DNA of 64,000 bases from an uncultured Roseibium sp. (GTDB lineage Bacteria; Pseudomonadota; Alphaproteobacteria; Rhizobiales; Stappiaceae): contig NZ_CANMNP010000002.1 of assembly GCF_947499295.1 (NCBI RefSeq), positions 372,001 to 436,000 of the forward strand. The letters are read 5' to 3'. Below, in pieces: positions 11,537-64,000 of the stretch. The notes below the pieces were generated by a model that had not been told where the DNA came from, made no database searches, and worked only from the letters and a program-made list of their open reading frames with translations. A program made the position numbers and the translations under genes. Every line of letters begins with the position of its first letter. The stretch's first letter is position 1.

Positions 11537-12670
11537 TTACGTAATGTTGGGCAGATCTAAAGTAAACATACAACCGTATCCATGTCCGTCTGGTTGTATT
11601 AAGCCCTCACTAAGAATAATTATTCCACCAATATTATTAATAATTTGCAAAGCGACAGGAAGACCAAGTCCGGAACTATTTTTACTTAGACTTTTTGAGT
11701 AAAATGGTTTGAATATTTTATCTCTATCAGACTTTTCAATACCTGGCCCATTATCGGAAATGGAAATCTGGAGTCTGGTGTTTTCAGTTTTCTTGAGTTC
11801 TATACGTATTATCCCTAGATGCTTTGTCGCTTGGGACGCGTTGGTGATGATATTGATCAATACTTGTGCAAACAGAGTTTCATTGATCGGTATAGCCAAA
11901 TCTGCTGGAACGTTCCGAAAGTCGGTTTGAATACTGACAGTTGCCGGCAGCATGAGCTGCACCAGTGAGATTGTGCGGATCAGGGCGTCAGGCAGGTGAG
12001 TCGATTCGGAACTGTTTTGAAATTCCCCACGCGAAAGGCCGAGCAAGTTGTTGGAGAGGTCCGCAGCCTGATGCGCGCTATAGCGTGCCATATCCAGATC
12101 GGCCCTGATCGCGGGGTCGGGGATGTCAGGCAAATGAAGTGAAATCAGGCTCTCTATGGGATGCAGCAGATTGTTCAGCTGATGGGCGAGTGCACCTGAC
12201 GCAGTCCCGAGTGTTTCAAGACGGTTCTGCGTCTTTTCCTTTTCTTCCCTAAGGCGTTCCTGGGTGATGTCGCGTTGAATGCCCAAATAGGCTGAAAGCC
12301 GTCCTGATTTGTCGAAGATCGGTGCCATGCGCAAAGCGTTCAGGAATGGCTCCCCGTCTTTCTTGTAGTTCAGCACGATGATGTCGATTGGTTTCTGGTC
12401 TTCAATGGCCTTCCGAATTCTGGCGACATCGTCCCTGTTGGTGCTCTCGCCCTGCAGAAACCTGCAGTTCCGACCAAGGGCTTCATCTGAGGCGTAGCCG
12501 GTTGTTTTCGTGAATGCCGGGTTCACATAGGTGAGCGGCAAGTCCGGCTGGCTTACATCGGAAACGCTGATGGTGTCCGGAGAACCTTCAAGGATCGACT
12601 TTAAGAGATCCGGGGCTCCTTTGATCAGGTGCCCCAGGGCTGCGTATCCGTCGTTGCTAGAGTCCGGCAT
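11537..12670 (-). CDS. LOV-domain (blue-light) sensor histidine kinase
   Basis: 377 residues from ATG 12670; a TTG at 12706 is the longer option. Residues about 20-140 are a LOV-type PAS domain with GRNCRFLQG, whose Cys69 is the residue that forms the flavin adduct on blue-light excitation, and YLGIQRDIT, whose Gln132 contacts flavin N5. NYKKDGEPFLNAL carries the two Asn residues that hold the flavin ring. A J-alpha-like helix leads to a HisKA domain with AHQLNNLLHPIESL (His163), then a HATPase domain (NIITNASQATKH, DNGPGI, GLGLPVALQI). No membrane segment, so cytosolic. First gene of an operon with a receiver and an MCP. Confidence 0.88.
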   Translation of the reverse strand: MPDSSNDGYAALGHLIKGAPDLLKSILEGSPDTISVSDVSQPDLPLTYVNPAFTKTTGYASDEALGRNCRFLQGESTNRDDVARIRKAIEDQKPIDIIVLNYKKDGEPFLNALRMAPIFDKSGRLSAYLGIQRDITQERLREEKEKTQNRLETLGTASGALAHQLNNLLHPIESLISLHLPDIPDPAIRADLDMARYSAHQAADLSNNLLGLSRGEFQNSSESTHLPDALIRTISLVQLMLPATVSIQTDFRNVPADLAIPINETLFAQVLINIITNASQATKHLGIIRIELKKTENTRLQISISDNGPGIEKSDRDKIFKPFYSKSLSKNSSGLGLPVALQIINNIGGIIILSEGLIQPDGHGYGCMFTLDLPNIT

Positions 12671-57314: not shown

Positions 57315-57682
57315 TTTTGACGTTTGGTCCTTCTGCAATCATTTTCGAGTTTTCGCTTGAACAACTGCGCGGCATGAAATCTTGTGCTGACGCTAACACA
57401 TGTTCTGTCCCGGGGAGCCTTGAAAGTGAGACGCTTCCTGCCGGACATCGAATGGATCCCGATAGCAGCTGTGTCGCCAGGTAAAGCGAGGCGCGCGCCT
57501 TAGGTGAGATGGCAATCAGACATTGCTTGAGTTGAAAAACCTAATTCGCTGCTGTCGATTGTGGGATGGACGTCTCTTCAAAGAAAACGCCTTTGACGCT
57601 CGTCAAAGAAAGACGGACGGGTCTGAGTTAGCTTTTCTGGATCTTGAAAAACCAAGCAACAACTCATTCCGGAATCAAGTCC
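57315..57682. other. 368-base region between HAD gene and moeA
   Basis: No convincing gene. Contains a GC-rich self-complementary stretch (57489-57500) and a near-perfect palindrome at 57592-57607. Presumably the divergent promoters of the HAD gene and moeA. Confidence 0.6.
57592..57607. promoter_or_regulatory. Palindrome upstream of moeA
   Basis: TTTGACG and CGTCAAA separated by CT, 75 bases before the moeA start. Perfect 7-bp arms suggest a dimeric regulator site; it does not resemble a ModE box or an FNR box. Confidence 0.45.
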
Positions 57683-58942
57683 ATGGAAAGCAAAGCCAAG
57701 TTCGATTGTTGTGACAATAGCCAGGAAAACCGCCTTTCGAGCGTTAATGATACCGTGTCACGGGCTGTCAGCCTTTGCAGCAAAATCACAGAATTTGAAG
57801 ATGTGCCTTTGCCAGGCGCCGCCGGAAGGGTCAACTTTGGCGAAACGGTTTCGCTTTTCTCCCTGCCAATTCATGATCACTCAGCCGTTGACGGATATGC
57901 GCTGGGCGGAAGTGGGAAAAAAGCGCTCAAGATTGTCGGACGAATGATTGCCGGAGATTGCCCGAAAGGCCGAATTGCGACGGACGAAGCCGTCCGCATC
58001 ATGACCGGCGCTCCAACGCCAAATGGAACCAGGTCCGTTGTCATGCAGGAACACGCGACCGTTTCGGATGGCTGCGTTGTGCCGAATTTCGACGTCCCGG
58101 AAGGCGACAACATTCGCCGTGCTGGCGAAGACGTTCAAGTCAACCAATCCCTTGTCCGCAGCGGCACGCGCCTTGATGCGCGCCACACTGCGCTGATGAC
58201 TGCCAGCGGCTATCAGACAGCATGTGTTGTCAGGAAAATTCGGGTGGCTGTGCTGTCGACCGGCAATGAGCTGCGCGATACCGGTGTAGGAATGGGGCCT
58301 GGCCATATCTTCGACACCAACCGGCCGATGCTGCGCACGCTTCTCAATTCGAATGCCGTGGAGACGACTGATCTGGGGATCATCAAGGATGATCTCGGCG
58401 CGATCTCGGAGACGCTGCGGGAAGCTGCAGGGGATCACGATCTCATCATTACATCAGGCGGCGTCTCGGTCGGCGAGGAAGATCATTTGAAGGCTGCCGT
58501 AGTTGCCGCAGGTGGCAGCATAGAAGGCTGGCGCATGGCAATTAAGCCCGGCAAGCCGATCGCGCTTGGAAAGATCGGCAAGGCGGTATACCTCGGGTTG
58601 CCGGGAAATCCGCTTGCCTGTTTTGTTGATTTTCTGCTGGTCGGCAGGCCGGTTCTTGAAGCGCTTGCCGGTGCCGTGCAGCGCGCGCCGTTGGTCCTGA
58701 ACGCCAGAGCTGCCTTTGGCTGGCAACGAAGACCGGGACGGCAGGAATTCTTTCCCTGCAACATCGTCGGCACGTCACAAGAAGGTTTTCCGCTTCTTGA
58801 GAAGACGGGCAGAGCCGGCTCCGCTCGTCTCATGCCTCTCATTGAGGCAGACGGTTTGGGTGCGGTTACTGCAGGCTGTTCAAGCATAGAACCGGGATCT
58901 GAGCTGAAGTTTTATCCGTTCAGAGCAGATATGGGACTTTAG
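57683..58942 (+). CDS. moeA: Molybdopterin molybdenumtransferase MoeA
   Basis: 419 residues from ATG 57683. Inserts molybdenum into molybdopterin-AMP to finish the cofactor. HDHSAVDGYALGG is the MoeA domain III/I active-site signature. GAPTPNGTRSVVMQEHA is in domain II, VLSTGNELRDTG and DTNRPMLRTLLNS in the MoaB-like domain, TSGGVSVGEEDHLKAAV is the molybdopterin-binding loop, and LGLPGNPLACFVDF follows. The gene stands alone, close to the molybdoenzyme operon at the window end, and may support that enzyme. Confidence 0.9.
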   Translation: MESKAKFDCCDNSQENRLSSVNDTVSRAVSLCSKITEFEDVPLPGAAGRVNFGETVSLFSLPIHDHSAVDGYALGGSGKKALKIVGRMIAGDCPKGRIATDEAVRIMTGAPTPNGTRSVVMQEHATVSDGCVVPNFDVPEGDNIRRAGEDVQVNQSLVRSGTRLDARHTALMTASGYQTACVVRKIRVAVLSTGNELRDTGVGMGPGHIFDTNRPMLRTLLNSNAVETTDLGIIKDDLGAISETLREAAGDHDLIITSGGVSVGEEDHLKAAVVAAGGSIEGWRMAIKPGKPIALGKIGKAVYLGLPGNPLACFVDFLLVGRPVLEALAGAVQRAPLVLNARAAFGWQRRPGRQEFFPCNIVGTSQEGFPLLEKTGRAGSARLMPLIEADGLGAVTAGCSSIEPGSELKFYPFRADMGL

Positions 58943-59060: not shown

Positions 59061-59558
59061 TTAACGCGGGAATTTTGCGTCCAGCTTTGCCAGCAGTTCC
59101 TGGAGCTTTTCATCGTGGCGGCCGGAGAGTTTCCTGGTCCAGCTTTCCGGTGGATTTTTCCAGGCGTCGGGTTCTCCGACAGCCAGCAGCATGACCATCC
59201 CATACCGGCCATGAACCTTGCAGGTCAGGACATAAAGTCCCGGCACGTCCATTGTCAGGGTTTCGGATGCGGTGTTGGCCACCGAGATCTTTTCAACACC
59301 GTCTGGTATCAGTCCCTTGACGCTGACCACCGTGTGCTGACCCCTGGAATTGTTGAAGGTGACCCGTTCACCTGTTTTCAGGGCAACGAAATTCGGCTCA
59401 AACCGAAACATGTCCAACACCCGGTCAGCCAACGGGTCGCTGATTTGATCGATCTTCGCGCTGGAAGATGTGCCATCAGCAAAGATTGGCGATGTCGCAA
59501 GAAGTATGGCGGCCATGACGGAAGCCACCGCAGCATATTTGAAAAATGCGCTTGGCAT
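59061..59558 (-). CDS. Pseudoazurin-like cupredoxin, exported
   Basis: 165 residues from ATG 59558, chosen because a signal peptide follows (FFKYAAVASVMAAILLATSP, cleavage near FADG). The mature domain is a blue-copper fold: GQHTVVSV carries the first His ligand, and LTCKVHGRYGMVMLL carries Cys, His (+3) and Met (+8), the C-x2-H-x4-M spacing of pseudoazurin. A 40-residue basic tail (SWTRKLSGRHDEKLQELLAK) is extra. Probably a periplasmic electron carrier. It follows the Crp/Fnr gene on the same strand and lies near the redox operon at 60750-64000. Confidence 0.82.
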   Translation of the reverse strand: MPSAFFKYAAVASVMAAILLATSPIFADGTSSSAKIDQISDPLADRVLDMFRFEPNFVALKTGERVTFNNSRGQHTVVSVKGLIPDGVEKISVANTASETLTMDVPGLYVLTCKVHGRYGMVMLLAVGEPDAWKNPPESWTRKLSGRHDEKLQELLAKLDAKFPR

Positions 59559-59567
59559 GGGTTCACT

Positions 59568-59581
59568 CCAGGTTGACCTGG
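59568..59581. promoter_or_regulatory. Palindrome next to the cupredoxin ribosome site
   Basis: CCAGGT-TG-ACCTGG, 10 bases upstream of the cupredoxin ATG and overlapping its GGAGTG ribosome site. A possible operator or translation-blocking hairpin. Confidence 0.35.
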
Positions 59582-59688
59582 CTACCGGTCCGAAAGTGGC
59601 GTTTACGACACCTGTTGACCGCGATGGCTCGGCAGTTTGAAATTTGGGAACGAAAGGCAGCCCAATTGGGTGCCATGAGTGAGCGACA

Positions 59689-60468
59689 CTAGGCGCCGCG
59701 TTTTCTGGGACGCCCCCCATTGGCAATCAGACGCAATCGGCGAACGTCCTCGATGGTTACCAGCTCGGCCTCGGGAAGGCTGATAACCCCTTCATTTGTC
59801 AGCGTCGTAAAACCTCTGCTGACGGTTTCAGGCTGAAGTCCGAGATAATCGGCGATGTCGCGGCGCCCGAATGGAATTGTGATCGAATTGAACTGATGTC
59901 CACTTCGCGGCAGCATCCGGCTTTTGAGCTCAAAAATGAATGCAGCAATGCGTTCGATAGGCGTCTTCTTGGCAAGATCATTGCTGTGATCGAGCAAGCG
60001 GAAAAGAAAATTGTTTGTCTGATCGATAAAGTGGTCTCTGGCTGTATCGGACCGACTGAGAAGTTTCTCGAAAATCGGGTATTCCATCAACTGGACCGCG
60101 CTGGGCGTAAGCGCTGTTATCGAGCCGTCGAACTGACGTTGCAGTGTCGCAAGATTGATGTAGTCGCCCGGCAGGAACAGACCGGTGATCGTTCTTCTGC
60201 CATCGCTGAGGTGGGCAACGATCCCGACCGCACCGGTCAGGATGCCGATAACAGGTGAATTTGGAAGTGTCTCGGGGTCTATTTCCTGTCCGGTCGCAAG
60301 CGCATATCTATGCGCACCCTTCGGGAGATCTATTCCAAAGGTCGTGCGAAGAGCGGCGCAAATACAGTTTTGAGAATGAAAACCGCAGCTGTGTTCCAGA
60401 CTGCACAGATTGCCGGCATCTTGATCTTCAGTATAGCTCTCCGCCGATAGTCCGTTCATTGGTCTCAT
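59689..60468 (-). CDS. Crp/Fnr-family regulator with N-terminal cysteine cluster
   Basis: 259 residues. Residues 22-37 hold all four cysteines of the protein (C22, C28, C35, C37), within CSLEHSCGFHSQNCICAA. This suggests an Fe-S or other redox sensor, but the spacing differs from E. coli FNR (C20, C23, C29, C122) and there is no later Cys. A cyclic-nucleotide-like sensor domain follows (IGILTGAVGIVAHLSDGRRT, LFLPGDYINL), then a winged helix with IPFGRRDIADYLGLQPETVS, RGFTTL and a basic tail RPRKRGA. The E..SR recognition residues predict an FNR-type box. It is divergent from the di-haem peroxidase/molybdoenzyme operon, with two such boxes between them, so it is the probable regulator. Confidence 0.85.
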   Translation of the reverse strand: MRPMNGLSAESYTEDQDAGNLCSLEHSCGFHSQNCICAALRTTFGIDLPKGAHRYALATGQEIDPETLPNSPVIGILTGAVGIVAHLSDGRRTITGLFLPGDYINLATLQRQFDGSITALTPSAVQLMEYPIFEKLLSRSDTARDHFIDQTNNFLFRLLDHSNDLAKKTPIERIAAFIFELKSRMLPRSGHQFNSITIPFGRRDIADYLGLQPETVSRGFTTLTNEGVISLPEAELVTIEDVRRLRLIANGGRPRKRGA

Positions 60469-60519: not shown

Positions 60520-60533
60520 TTGAGCAATATCAA
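60520..60533. promoter_or_regulatory. FNR-type box, regulator-proximal
   Basis: TTGAGCAATATCAA matches TTGAT-N4-ATCAA with one mismatch. Its centre is 58 bases upstream of the Crp/Fnr gene start, so autoregulation is possible. Confidence 0.65.
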
Positions 60534-60628: not shown

Positions 60629-60642
60629 TTGATTGCAATCAG
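60629..60642 (+). promoter_or_regulatory. FNR-type box of the redox operon
   Basis: TTGATTGCAATCAG matches the FNR/FixK consensus with one mismatch. A -10-like GAATAC at 60663-60668 lies at the right distance for class II activation, giving a start near 60677 and a leader of about 73 bases before the first peroxidase gene. Confidence 0.75.
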
Positions 60643-60749: not shown

Positions 60750-61823
60750 ATGCGCCTAACTGCAAGTATTGCAGCTCTGCTATTAGCCACCACGGCTGCC
60801 TGGTCCGCAGATCAGGGTCCGGTTACGCCGATGGAGGTCAATCCCGAGCTGGCCGAACTCGGCAAGCGTCTTTTCTACGACACACGCCTGTCCGGCGACA
60901 CCAACCTTTCCTGTTCATCTTGCCATCAGCCGGATCTCGCCTTTTCGGACGGTGAGGCCCTTTCAACGGCCTATAGCGGGTCGGAAGGTTTTCGAAACAC
61001 GCCCACGCTTGCCAATGTCGGCCAGCGTGCGGCCTGGATGCATGATGGCCGCCTCGGCACGAACCTGAACGACGTTTCCCGTGAAATGATCACGGAAGAC
61101 TACATCATGAACATGGACATGCGGATGATGCAGGAGCGTCTGAAGCAGGATCCGGTCTATGTGGAAATGTTCAAGGCTGCCGGCAAGGGTGAACCTTCAA
61201 ACGGCGGTGCGCGCTCAGCGCTTCAGGAGTTCCTGAAGTCGATCGCCTCTTCAGGTTCTCCGTTCGATACCGGTGAAATGAGCGAAGCTGCGAAACGCGG
61301 CTACGTGAACTTCAAGGGCAAGGCCGGCTGCACGGCCTGTCATTCCGGTGACCGTTTCACCGACGACCAGCCGCACAATATCGGCGTTCCCGACAACCCG
61401 GACATCTGGTCCGACCCGCTGCGGCATCAGACATACGTTGCCTATGCGAAATTCATGGGTGTCGAAAACTACATGAACGTGCGCACGGATCTCGGAGCCT
61501 ACATCCGCGATCACAAGGAAAGTTCGAAACGAACATTCATGACGCCGACCTTACGCGAGCTGACTTACACCGCGCCGTACATGCACAATGGCACGCTGGC
61601 AACGCTGGAAGACGTGGTCGAATTCTACAACCAGGGTGGTGGTGATGACTTGAACAAGGATTCTCGTTTGAAGCCGCTTGAACTAACCCGCGGCGAAAAG
61701 GCTGACCTGGTTGAATTTCTGAAAGCGCTTTCCGGCGATAGCTACAACCAACCCGCCTATGTCTGGGAACAGGATGACTACGCATATGAAGTCGTTCCCG
61801 ACTGGAAAAACGCGACCAATTGA
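60750..61823 (+). CDS. idrP1: Di-haem cytochrome c peroxidase family protein (IdrP1-like)
   Basis: 357 residues with GGAGGG upstream. Signal peptide MRLTASIAALLLATTAAWSA. Two c-haem sites: CSSCH (Cys55-His59) and CTACH (Cys194-His198), the bacterial CcpA/MauG plan. LAELGKRLFYDTRLSGD and PTLRELTYTAPYMHNGTLAT are family signatures. Such enzymes reduce H2O2, or in iodate reducers are thought to remove peroxide or handle intermediate products. First of four genes with 11-12 base gaps and near-identical GGAGA-type ribosome sites. Numbering as P1 is by order only. Confidence 0.82.
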   Translation: MRLTASIAALLLATTAAWSADQGPVTPMEVNPELAELGKRLFYDTRLSGDTNLSCSSCHQPDLAFSDGEALSTAYSGSEGFRNTPTLANVGQRAAWMHDGRLGTNLNDVSREMITEDYIMNMDMRMMQERLKQDPVYVEMFKAAGKGEPSNGGARSALQEFLKSIASSGSPFDTGEMSEAAKRGYVNFKGKAGCTACHSGDRFTDDQPHNIGVPDNPDIWSDPLRHQTYVAYAKFMGVENYMNVRTDLGAYIRDHKESSKRTFMTPTLRELTYTAPYMHNGTLATLEDVVEFYNQGGGDDLNKDSRLKPLELTRGEKADLVEFLKALSGDSYNQPAYVWEQDDYAYEVVPDWKNATN

Positions 61824-61835
61824 GGAGACAGGATC

Positions 61836-62978
61836 ATGTCAAAAGCCATGAAGAAAGCCGTCTCCGCATGGGCTCTTGCAGGCGCATCAGTGCTGGCAAT
61901 CGCCACCGGAGCAATCGCCGCAGATCGGCCGGCAGACCTTGCACCGCTGGGTGACCCGCCCATTCCGGCAGACAACCCGCAAACACCGGAAAAGATCGAA
62001 CTCGGCAAGATGTTGTTTTTCGATCCGCGTCTTTCCGGCAACAGCGCAATGCCATGCTCGGCGTGCCATCTACCCGACGCCGGGTGGGATTTCCCCGACA
62101 AGATCTCGCTTGGATATCCGGGCACGGTTCACTGGCGGAACTCCCAGACAATCATCAACTCGGCCTATTACGGCAACCTCTTCTGGGCGGGATCTTCCAA
62201 GTCGCTGGAAGCACAGGCCAAGTCGGCTGCCAAAGGTGCGGTCGCCGGGAATGGCGAAGATGACATGCTTGAATCTCGCCTGGCATTCGTTCCGGAATAC
62301 CGCGAGCGGTTCAAGGATGTCTTTGGAACCGAGTATCCGCGCCTGAGCCACGCCTGGATGGCAATTGCCGCGTTTGAGCGCACACTCGTTCAAACAGACA
62401 CACCATTCGACACCTATATGCGCGGCGATGATGCGGCTCTGGATGATGCCCAAAAGCGCGGTTTGGAACTGTTCACCGGCAAGGCAGGATGCTCCCAGTG
62501 TCACAACGGGGCGCTGCTGAGCAACCAGAAATACTATAATCTCGGTGTGCCTGCCTATGACGGTTGGGAAGCCGACGAGCTTGCCCAGATCACCTTCCGT
62601 TACGAGCTTTATGCGAAGGGATCCACGGAGGAAATGTACCGGTCCTACAAGGATGATCCGGGCGTCTATTTCCGTGCAAAGGACAAGAACCACCTCGGCA
62701 AATTCCGCGTTCCGTCGTTGCGCTACACAAAGTACACGGCGCCATACATGCACAACGGCATGATCGAAACGCTGGAAGACGTCATCGAGTTCTACAACCA
62801 GGGCGGCGGTGAAAACCAGTTCGCTGAAACCAAAAGCGAACTCATCAAACCTCTCGGCCTCAATGACGACGAAAAAGCCGATCTGCTGGCCTTTCTGGAA
62901 AGCCTTTCCGGTGAACGCATCGTGATGGAGGAGCCTGAGCTTCCCGAATACGACGTCCTTCCGGCGGCTTCGAACTAA
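61836..62978 (+). CDS. idrP2: Di-haem cytochrome c peroxidase family protein (IdrP2-like)
   Basis: 380 residues with TGAGGAGA upstream. Signal peptide of about 29 residues (ALAGASVLAIATGAIAADRP). Haem-c motifs CSACH (Cys74-His78) and CSQCH (Cys219-His223). LGKMLFFDPRLSGNSAMP parallels the first peroxidase, with which it clearly shares ancestry although the middle regions differ (SLGYPGTVHWRNSQTIINSA here). The C-terminal region has SLRYTKYTAPYMHNGMIETL and DVIEFYNQGGGENQF, as in the first. A paralogous pair of this type is the hallmark of idr operons. Confidence 0.82.
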   Translation: MSKAMKKAVSAWALAGASVLAIATGAIAADRPADLAPLGDPPIPADNPQTPEKIELGKMLFFDPRLSGNSAMPCSACHLPDAGWDFPDKISLGYPGTVHWRNSQTIINSAYYGNLFWAGSSKSLEAQAKSAAKGAVAGNGEDDMLESRLAFVPEYRERFKDVFGTEYPRLSHAWMAIAAFERTLVQTDTPFDTYMRGDDAALDDAQKRGLELFTGKAGCSQCHNGALLSNQKYYNLGVPAYDGWEADELAQITFRYELYAKGSTEEMYRSYKDDPGVYFRAKDKNHLGKFRVPSLRYTKYTAPYMHNGMIETLEDVIEFYNQGGGENQFAETKSELIKPLGLNDDEKADLLAFLESLSGERIVMEEPELPEYDVLPAASN

Positions 62979-62989
62979 GGAGACGGATT

Positions 62990-63586
62990 ATGACGAAACA
63001 TCAAAAACCGATCGATCCGGCTCTGATCGAAGCCATCAACGGCCCGAAGGACGTTGCCAAGACAGGCAAGCGGTGCCTCATGAACAGACGTCAGTTTCTT
63101 CTGACGTCGGGCATCACCACGTTCACGGTCATGGTCGCTCTGAAGGCTGGCCCTTCATCTGCAAAGGTTCCGGCGGTGGTTTCGACCTACGAACGCAAGC
63201 TGATCGGCAAGCTCTCGGAGCTGAAAGAGGACGAGCCTCTCGACTTCACCTATCCCGATGACGGCGCTTATTCGGAATCCATGCTGGTCAAGCTCGGCCG
63301 TGAAGCCGGCGGAGGGATCGGACCCAATAAGGATGTGGTTGCGTTCAACTACACCTGTACCCACCAGGGTGGACCGCTTCAGGGCACTTACAAGTCCGAG
63401 GACAAGGTGCTGGGGCCGTGCCCGTTGCACCTGACCACATTCGATCTGACACGCCACGGTATTTTCATCTCCGGACAAGCTTACCAGAGCCTGCCTCAGG
63501 TGCTGCTCGAGCTGGATGGAGATGACATCTATGCCGTTGGAATGTTCGGCCTGATCTATGGCCGTTACAACAATCTCAAGGGCTGA
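62990..63586 (+). CDS. idrB: Rieske iron-sulfur subunit of AioB/IdrB type
   Basis: 198 residues with AAGGAGA upstream. Twin-arginine signal NRRQFLLTSGITTFTVMVAL at residues 32-51. The Rieske cluster motif is CTHQGG (Cys123, His125) and CPLH (Cys144, His147), the 2Fe-2S ligands. The two extra Cys that form a disulfide in bc1-type Rieske proteins are absent; some AioB proteins also lack them. Small electron-transfer subunit paired with the molybdoenzyme 11 bases downstream. Called IdrB rather than AioB from the two upstream peroxidases. Confidence 0.82.
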   Translation: MTKHQKPIDPALIEAINGPKDVAKTGKRCLMNRRQFLLTSGITTFTVMVALKAGPSSAKVPAVVSTYERKLIGKLSELKEDEPLDFTYPDDGAYSESMLVKLGREAGGGIGPNKDVVAFNYTCTHQGGPLQGTYKSEDKVLGPCPLHLTTFDLTRHGIFISGQAYQSLPQVLLELDGDDIYAVGMFGLIYGRYNNLKG

Positions 63587-63597
63587 GGAGACCGATA

Positions 63598-64000
63598 ATG
63601 TCCACACCCTACTATATCCCAGAGACAAATATTCCGCTGCCTCCGGTGGATGCGGATGTGATCTCGACCGCTTGCGACTACTGCATTGTCGCCTGCGGCT
63701 ACAAGATTTATCGCTGGCCGGTCAAGGGCGGCAAGGTTGGCGGCGAGAAGGCCGAGGAAAACGCTTTTGGCGTCGACTTCCCGGTCGACCCGCTCGGCCC
63801 ATGGGTTGCACCGAACCAGTACAATGTCGTGCTGCATGATGGCGAGCCACATCACGTCATCATCATTCCCGACAAGGATACGGAGCACGTCAATCTGCTC
63901 GGCAACTCCTCCATCCGCGGCGGGGCTCTGGCGCAGAAGGTCTATAATCCGCAGACACCGACCCGTGATCGGCTGAAATCTCCGATGATCCGCATGTTCG
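63598..64000 (+). CDS. idrA: AioA/IdrA-family molybdopterin oxidoreductase, large subunit (3' end cut)
   Basis: First 134 residues; the gene runs off the window. STACDYCIVACGYKIYRWP has Cys26, Cys29 and Cys33 (C-x2-C-x3-C), and GNSSIRGG (Ser104/105) replaces the fourth Cys, so the 3Fe-4S cluster of arsenite-oxidase-type enzymes is expected rather than 4Fe-4S. LPPVDADVISTACDYC and ENAFGVDFPVDPLG also follow AioA. No signal peptide is present; export would be with the Tat-targeted Rieske partner. Arsenite oxidase and iodate reductase belong to one family and cannot be separated by this fragment, but the peroxidase pair and FNR-type regulation favour iodate reductase. Confidence 0.8.
   Translation, partial: MSTPYYIPETNIPLPPVDADVISTACDYCIVACGYKIYRWPVKGGKVGGEKAEENAFGVDFPVDPLGPWVAPNQYNVVLHDGEPHHVIIIPDKDTEHVNLLGNSSIRGGALAQKVYNPQTPTRDRLKSPMIRMF

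Follow-up and report, generated by a model that had tools for sequence, protein, structure and literature searches.

The window analysed here, a stretch of 64,000 nucleotides from an uncultured Roseibium (G000:C2:372001-436000, in a source assembly of 6.4 Mb in 181 contigs), ends inside an operon which, judged from its sequence, very probably encodes an iodate reductase (Idr) of the marine type, a system known in kind. We propose that the marine-type iodate reductase is a five-gene system, in which a HEAT-repeat protein encoded just behind the catalytic subunit gene idrA would be an obligatory maturation factor of IdrA and a new HEAT-solenoid chaperone of molybdoenzymes. The presence of this protein, together with a serine at the position of Glu203 of arsenite oxidase (AioA), would set the marine electron-sink enzyme apart from the respiratory one of the betaproteobacterial type. 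Our rough probability for this reading is 0.4. The new addition is the constant HEAT gene with its signature, plus a dedicated regulator and operator of this branch. Marine-type denotes our own cut of at least 70% identity to the window IdrA; idr loci at 66% identity are called middle, and those about 50% identical are called freshwater-type.

The HEAT-repeat gene behind idrA

The HEAT gene (L002:10366-12774; 802 amino acids; PF13646, E 9.4e-31) starts 92 bases after idrA, 2.4 kb past the window edge, and its product has no leader that we could see. Open reading frames (ORFs) of about 700-800 amino acids, found without any profile, occupy this position in most relatives with enough DNA. With a HEAT profile built from 28 copies, some of them from the loci that were counted, the gene was found after idrA in 89 of 89 marine-type loci, and in 0 of 2 middle, 0 of 7 freshwater-type and 0 of 20 AioA loci. 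This count covers loci with at least 200 bases downstream, leaving out duplicates and the marine-type L036, L131 and L014 (fewer than 200 bases), and some of the AioA loci in it have only 0.5-1.5 kb of downstream DNA; the 80 named loci in it come from the best 80 of 454 relatives. The profile had no match elsewhere in the examined locus stretches.

The same association is seen in whole genomes. A search with the single protein matched 3 of 16 chosen genomes, namely the three with marine-type idrA. With a profile from the A2 alignment, copies scoring at least 290 bits were present in 12 of 61 relatives, these being all 11 genomes with marine-type idrA (one copy split, one cut by a contig end, among the twelve) and G006, and in 2 of 398 genomes of the phylum, G000 and G397, the two with marine-type idrA. 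When both sets are combined, marine-type idrA is present in 12 of the 13 genomes with such a high-scoring copy (at least 290 bits). A HEAT gene found there by chance or hitchhiking was considered as a candidate explanation and rejected, as matches outside the family reach at most 64.8 bits in the 398 phylum genomes and 48.8 bits in the 61 relatives, and are short alignments with generic HEAT proteins.

Between the window strain and its closest relative, Labrenzia sp. THAF82, the HEAT gene is under purifying selection (nonsynonymous divergence dN 0.074, synonymous divergence dS 0.642), although it evolves much faster than idrA (dN 0.001), the proteins being 86% identical where IdrA is 99.8% identical. 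Fourteen columns are invariant in 27 HEAT sequences, including D64, D66, R68, W133, W140, W143 and Q147, and in the signature WDxWLxxQ both tryptophans and the glutamine are invariant across the same alignment. The AlphaFold model is a helical solenoid with a low-confidence linker (mean predicted local distance difference test, pLDDT, 83). Among the 50 matches listed by Foldseek the best E was 4.8e-7, with template modelling (TM) scores by query length of 0.14-0.42, while the 50 matches listed by VIA-align had Z 14.2-18.5 and comprised importins, the PP2A scaffold, CAND1, SF3b and designed alphaReps. Since these matches are generic solenoids, no function is read from the structure search. These facts would fit a HEAT protein that stays in the cytoplasm, is produced at a lower level and helps IdrA to fold or to take up its cofactor.

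The lower level is suggested because of a terminator-like hairpin of 11 pairs with a T-rich tail which lies between idrA and the HEAT gene. When 80-base regions just after idrA were folded, 19 of the 21 chosen fell below -20 kcal/mol, and in 15 of the 21 the z value relative to simple shuffles was -2 or lower; nothing of the kind appeared in L067 and L060.

Several observations weigh against a dedicated maturation factor. The two idr loci at 66% identity have no recognisable HEAT gene downstream, G006 has the HEAT gene without idrA, the fold is that of HEAT/armadillo solenoids in general, and terminator-like sites in the region number 10 against a shuffle mean of 10.8, which is no enrichment. 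Some of these points would also suit a HEAT gene that is a passenger, kept through shared inheritance of an island and with no role in iodate reduction, as would its fast evolution, its absence from the more distant idr loci and the position of a terminator-like hairpin in front of it. We consider a passenger rather unlikely, however, as the gene is retained in every one of the 89 marine-type loci despite differing flanks, is under purifying selection, and in its high-scoring form occurs almost always with marine-type idrA. A distant HEAT-like gene also lies beside the idr genes of a Vibrio, on the other side of the operon, with a weak family link. In the Roseibium genome G006, where HEAT survives without idr, a DUF2478 gene stands back to back with the HEAT gene, the idr genes being absent from the junction (L197:8057-11156). 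This looks like the deletion scar of a lost idr operon and suggests that loss is one reason why idr is so patchily distributed.

In the literature searched, HEAT repeat was absent from the papers on iodate and idrA, and no paper joined HEAT repeat with molybdoenzyme. If the obligatory maturation factor proposed here is real, heterologous expression of idrABP1P2 alone would fail, for an unexpected reason. As a second, independent marker, the HEAT gene beside idrA would also allow marine-type idr to be told apart from arsenite oxidase in genomic and metagenomic data.

Observations on single loci should be added. In Labrenzia sp. DG1229 the HEAT gene lies in two overlapping frames (L028:12769-15146), either a sequencing error or a real frameshift. 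The 1.7 Mb plasmid of Vibrio sp. THAF190c carries an idr operon (IdrA 66% identical) in a stretch without annotated features, with the distant HEAT-like gene upstream in divergent orientation and, downstream of idr, a pseudoazurin-like gene (L114:4028-6061, 11753-12196). The Vibrio HEAT-like protein was not counted, since the profile comparison was weak (probability 32, E 0.00048), Pfam HEAT_2 stayed below its cut-off and the HEAT profile missed it. In three freshwater-type loci, the gene after idrA is DUF2478-like by sequence clustering; a Pfam scan of one copy gave no match.

The operon and its separation from arsenite oxidase

All four core genes are on the + strand, and in the ORF list the gaps idrP-idrP-idrB-idrA are 12, 11 and 11 bases. 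The first idrP-type di-haem peroxidase gene (60750-61823; 357 amino acids; PF03150, E 8.9e-37) and the second (61836-62978; 380 amino acids; PF03150, E 2.8e-43; conserved in position) each encode two CxxCH motifs and a Sec-type leader, and were not assigned to P1 or P2. They are followed by idrB for the Rieske subunit, exported by the twin-arginine translocation (Tat) system (62990-63586; 198 amino acids; TIGR02694 116.7 bits, cut-off 95.65; RRQFL; CXHX18CX2H), and by the 5' part of idrA for the molybdopterin catalytic subunit (63598 to the window edge at 64000; AioA-type N-terminus, PF18465, E 5.5e-35). Beyond the edge idrA is complete and intact (L002:7598-10273; 891 amino acids), its end being the equivalent of window position 66273; IdrA has CX2CX3CX70S and no leader. 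The motifs and leaders were read by eye from the sequences, whereas the families come from Pfam and NCBIfam scans, which covered nine neighbour proteins. CXHX18CX2H and CX2CX3CX70S are the motifs published for IdrB and IdrA of Azoarcus DN11 (PMC10149662).

The ORFs and family scans thus bear out the sequence-only reading, which had described two di-haem peroxidases, a Tat-exported Rieske protein and an AioA-family molybdoenzyme in one operon with gaps of 11-12 bp. Both peroxidase genes are adjacent and upstream of idrBA, the arrangement expected of IdrABP1P2. Homologues of the first peroxidase (63-99% identical) stand in the same place in idr loci that are not cut there, and the order of the four core genes is constant wherever the contigs of relatives extend far enough. 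Base composition showed no clear island edge across 19 kb, and a sigma-70 scan gave one promoter-like site against 4.1 expected and was not used as evidence.

The tree was built from 157 loci with a match of at least 780 residues (or above 800 at 95% identity), with shorter fragments excluded and identical sequences collapsed to 115 rows. It splits 95 Idr rows from 20 AioA rows (Shimodaira-Hasegawa-like approximate likelihood ratio test, SH-aLRT, 100), with the window IdrA on the Idr side; the tree method was a quick one, the program warned of long AioA and freshwater branches, and its rows do not include the founding IdrA sequences. On the Idr side, 87 marine-type rows lie on one side of a branch with support 99, two rows at 66% identity are the Vibrio plasmid and G074, from another class of the phylum, and six freshwater-type rows (48-53% identical) include plasmids of Azonexus and Thiothrix.

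The arsenite site of AioA consists of His195, Glu203, Arg419 and His423 in A. faecalis AioA numbering. In the alignment, equivalents of His195, Arg419 and His423 are retained in 115 of 115 rows, and the change is at Glu203: glutamate in 20 of 20 AioA rows, serine in 87 of 87 marine-type rows, aspartate in 6 of 6 freshwater-type rows, and serine or alanine in the two middle rows. The window IdrA has Ser205 there, and thus lacks the full four-residue site. A second difference in the active site is Thr199 in the marine clade versus lysine in the freshwater-type clade.

The sequence-only reading had named the operon an iodate reductase (idr) operon after seeing only the 5' part of the large subunit. 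With the 3' part obtained from the source genome, the whole subunit falls in the IdrA clade, apart from AioA, and carries serine for Glu203; therefore what would have spoken against that name, a full subunit that groups with AioA and keeps the arsenite-binding residues, did not occur, even though three of the four residues are kept. An arsenite oxidase AioAB, with the peroxidases as chance neighbours, is very improbable. It would account for the scores above the cut-offs of TIGR02693 and TIGR02694, for the kept equivalents of His195, Arg419 and His423, and for AioA being the nearest solved structure by sequence; it is opposed by the clade separate from 20 AioA rows, by the replacement of Glu203 in all 95 Idr rows and by the two peroxidases in the operon. 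Besides, family scans of the nine neighbours brought up nothing recognisable as an arsenic or aioXSR gene, the ORFs of the following 19 kb having been listed and inspected by eye only. AioAB and the window IdrAB share the family, the cofactor motifs, the Rieske partner and three of four substrate-site residues; AioAB differs in forming a separate clade, in keeping Glu203 and in having no HEAT gene (20 of 20 loci), while the window has the peroxidases.

The retention of three arsenite-site residues and the TIGR02693 score of the window IdrA (450.9, above the arsenite oxidase cut-off of 359.05) must still be counted on the other side of the balance. So must the facts that the identification comes from sequence and that none of the strains tested in print can be placed by name in the tree, where only an Aliiroseovarius metagenome-assembled genome (MAG; L071) and Thalassovita taeanensis (L062) can. 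The latter is presumably the renamed Litorimicrobium taeanense, which PMC8692401 lists.

The curated NCBIfam model names the window enzyme arsenate reductase (azurin), and the idr protein on the Azonexus plasmid is also annotated in this way. Because of such names, idr is easily missed in genomes.

Hosts, growth and substrate

The 80 relatives examined were the best 80 of 454, biased to near relatives, with 374 remaining unseen; going by their titles, 79 of these best 80 belong to the Alphaproteobacteria or just to "Proteobacteria", and the remaining one to the Anaerolineae. The closest of them, by best segment, are Labrenzia sp. THAF82 (100%), an uncultured Roseibium (99%) and Roseibium album (98%), followed by Labrenzia sp. 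DG1229 (98%) and Labrenzia alba (96%). Within Roseibium/Labrenzia, idrA is patchy (8 of 37 genus genomes searched), and three other genomes of the genus (G009, G035 and G036) have in its place an AioA 31-33% identical. The IdrA of the Anaerolineae-titled MAG IP29b_bin.19 is almost identical to that of an alphaproteobacterial MAG (L086, L081), by binning error or recent transfer.

The suggestion that known members come mainly from other groups, and that this may be a new host, did not hold up well. PMC8692401 describes idr in 145 genomes, Alphaproteobacteria included, with poorly conserved surroundings of idrABP1P2. Alphaproteobacterial strains with idr, from three genera, had been reported in 2024 to reduce iodate (PMC11445184), and this leaves "new host" weak. 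The literature searched, supplementary tables not covered, held no paper on iodate together with Roseibium or Labrenzia, so that Roseibium as an idr host is probably new to the searchable literature; the genus may already be listed in such tables.

The published alphaproteobacteria also bear on the word dissimilatory. Static cultures of Roseovarius azorensis, Notoacmeibacter marinus and Aliiroseovarius sediminilitoris reduced 2 mM iodate almost completely, and in one marine alphaproteobacterium the idr genes are induced by iodate and low oxygen (PMC11445184). Under N2, cultures of the three tested alphaproteobacteria neither grew nor reduced iodate, while washed, induced R. azorensis cells reduced it without oxygen (PMC11445184). 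As the tested strains could not grow anaerobically with iodate, "dissimilatory" in the original label is unsupported, and therefore the idr operon of Alphaproteobacteria is known but growth by it is not. These strains share the core four genes with the window, with iodate reduction at low oxygen shown for them, and belong to other genera than Roseibium; the words HEAT repeat, regulator, Fnr and azurin are absent from the main text of PMC11445184 (supplementary gene maps not covered).

Growth is documented in another group. Denitromonas requires idrA, as stated in PMC11445184 and PMC8801600, and Azoarcus DN11 is a further idr strain (PMC10149662). According to PMC8801600, all strains with proven growth as of 2022 fall in one small clade of ten genomes, in which a two-component system is found in eight, a c551-like cytochrome in five and moaA likewise in five, and "idrAB is always preceded by" idrP1P2. 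The sequence-only reading had counted the absence of a two-component system and of a small cytochrome c as an argument against arsenite oxidase; it fails to discriminate, because betaproteobacterial-type idr clusters can have both. The island of Denitromonas, Pseudomonas SCT, Aromatoleum TC-10 and Azoarcus DN11 has the peroxidase-peroxidase-Rieske-molybdoenzyme core in common with the window, and its cultured strains grow on iodate, unlike the tested marine Alphaproteobacteria (PMC8692401, PMC8801600 and PMC10149662). None of these four is in the tree, and from their neighbours we infer that they are of the freshwater type. The freshwater-type relatives which are in the tree, 48-53% identical, differ from the window in having aspartate in place of serine at the Glu203 position and no HEAT gene.

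True dissimilatory respiration of iodate that supports anaerobic growth of the window Roseibium is hence an unlikely reading. The core four genes are as in Denitromonas, Pseudomonas SCT and Azoarcus DN11 (PMC8692401 and PMC10149662), and the anoxic reduction by washed, induced R. azorensis cells (PMC11445184) is also in its favour, against which stand the lack of growth and iodate reduction under N2 in all three tested alphaproteobacteria (PMC11445184) and the confinement of the growth-proven strains of 2022 to the ten-genome clade (PMC8801600).

A further alternative, also unlikely and if anything slightly more so, is that the real marine substrate of the clade is another oxidant (bromate, or an organic iodine or nitrogen compound) and iodate a side activity. 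The marine and freshwater-type clades differ in the active site (serine versus aspartate; Thr199 versus lysine) and in partner genes, and the marine strains reduce iodate without growing on it. Moreover, no significant Idr activity was detected in crude extract of R. azorensis, the activity being found in a gel band only (PMC11445184), a result which weighs on our own reading too. On the other hand, iodate at 0.1 uM induces idrA in R. azorensis, and no protein in the gel band active with iodate had better coverage than IdrA (PMC11445184).

By analogy with the marine strains that were tested, the idr system more probably serves as an electron sink at low oxygen than as a respiration that supports growth. 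The Crp/Fnr-type protein described below would turn the operon on at low oxygen, and the leaderless HEAT protein, possibly at a lower level owing to the hairpin, would assist IdrA maturation before export. IdrA would be exported together with IdrB, whose leader directs it to the Tat system. Once in the periplasm, IdrAB would receive electrons from a cupredoxin or cytochrome c and, following the model in PMC8692401, would reduce iodate with four electrons to hypoiodous acid, which then breaks down to iodide, while the two peroxidases would remove the oxidants formed. PMC11445184 argues that the reduction of iodate in the sea is a source of the iodide at its surface, which destroys ozone.

Regulator, operator and neighbouring genes

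Divergent from the operon lies a gene for a Crp/Fnr-family regulator (59689-60468, - strand; PF13545, E 3.3e-14), a candidate activator of idr with four N-terminal cysteines. Oxygen sensors of the FNR type bind a [4Fe-4S] cluster through N-terminal cysteines and a central cysteine. A related gene is present in 22 of 96 clustered loci, near copies included, and a two-component system in 43 of 96, with both only in L067, so the two almost exclude each other across idr loci. In many of them, as at L040:3811-6980, a PAS hybrid histidine kinase and an OmpR-type response regulator replace Crp/Fnr (Pfam, L040 pair only). The four N-terminal cysteines are found in all 16 aligned Roseibium and Pseudovibrio copies of the 22, spaced C-x5-C-x6-C-x-C in Roseibium and with a first spacer of x4 in most Pseudovibrio, with no conserved central cysteine; the other six (Pelagibius, Afifella, two Kiloniellaceae, Sulfitobacter and one truncated copy) are missing the motif.

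A palindrome, TTGATTGCAATCAG, at 60629-60642 upstream of the first idrP is a candidate Crp/Fnr operator. The pattern YTGATTGCAATCAR has its single match in the window at these positions, where 0 were expected, and the 14-base palindrome occurs at one place in the whole source genome. The 12-base core TGATTGCAATCA is present once each in 22 of 200 loci, upstream of idrP (three being repeats of one genome), while the Crp-type loci L022, L039, L054 and L059 are without the exact palindrome. Among the Roseibium genomes tested, the 14-base form is at one place in four of five with idr and at two in G028, versus none in the three without idr, the extra G028 copy lying beside genes unlike the idr neighbours searched. 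A second FNR/Crp-like site, TTGAGCAATATCAA, at 60520-60533 fits TTGAT-N4-ATCAA at 9 of 10 positions. Looser FNR-like sites (at least 8 of 10) are present in the upstream regions of 22 of 22 Crp-type loci, but also of 20 of 37 two-component loci and 10 of 18 with neither, and because of this the looser motif alone proves little.

A pseudoazurin-like cupredoxin gene (59061-59726, - strand; TIGR02375 62.3 bits, below the cut-off of 109.85; PF00127, E 5.8e-7), whose true start is probably internal, at MPSAFFKY, encodes a candidate electron carrier. Such a gene accompanies idr in 23 of the 96 clustered loci, those of Vibrio and G074 (66% identity) among them, and the copper protein is therefore a candidate electron donor instead of cytochrome c551.

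A cofactor gene linked to idr, for a moeA-type molybdopterin molybdotransferase (57644-58942, + strand; PF03453/PF00994/PF03454), is found in several Roseibium idr loci. A second moaA copy is present in six of seven tested Roseibium genomes with idr, the exception being G003, and in none of four without idr. In several Roseibium, moaA, mogA and moeA are left of the operon; moaA and mogA are on its right in the window strain and THAF82, and in G028 on another contig than idr. Extra moeA, mogA, moaA and DUF2478 genes thus flank the operon (57644-58942; L002:12841-14921) and switch sides between Roseibium strains.

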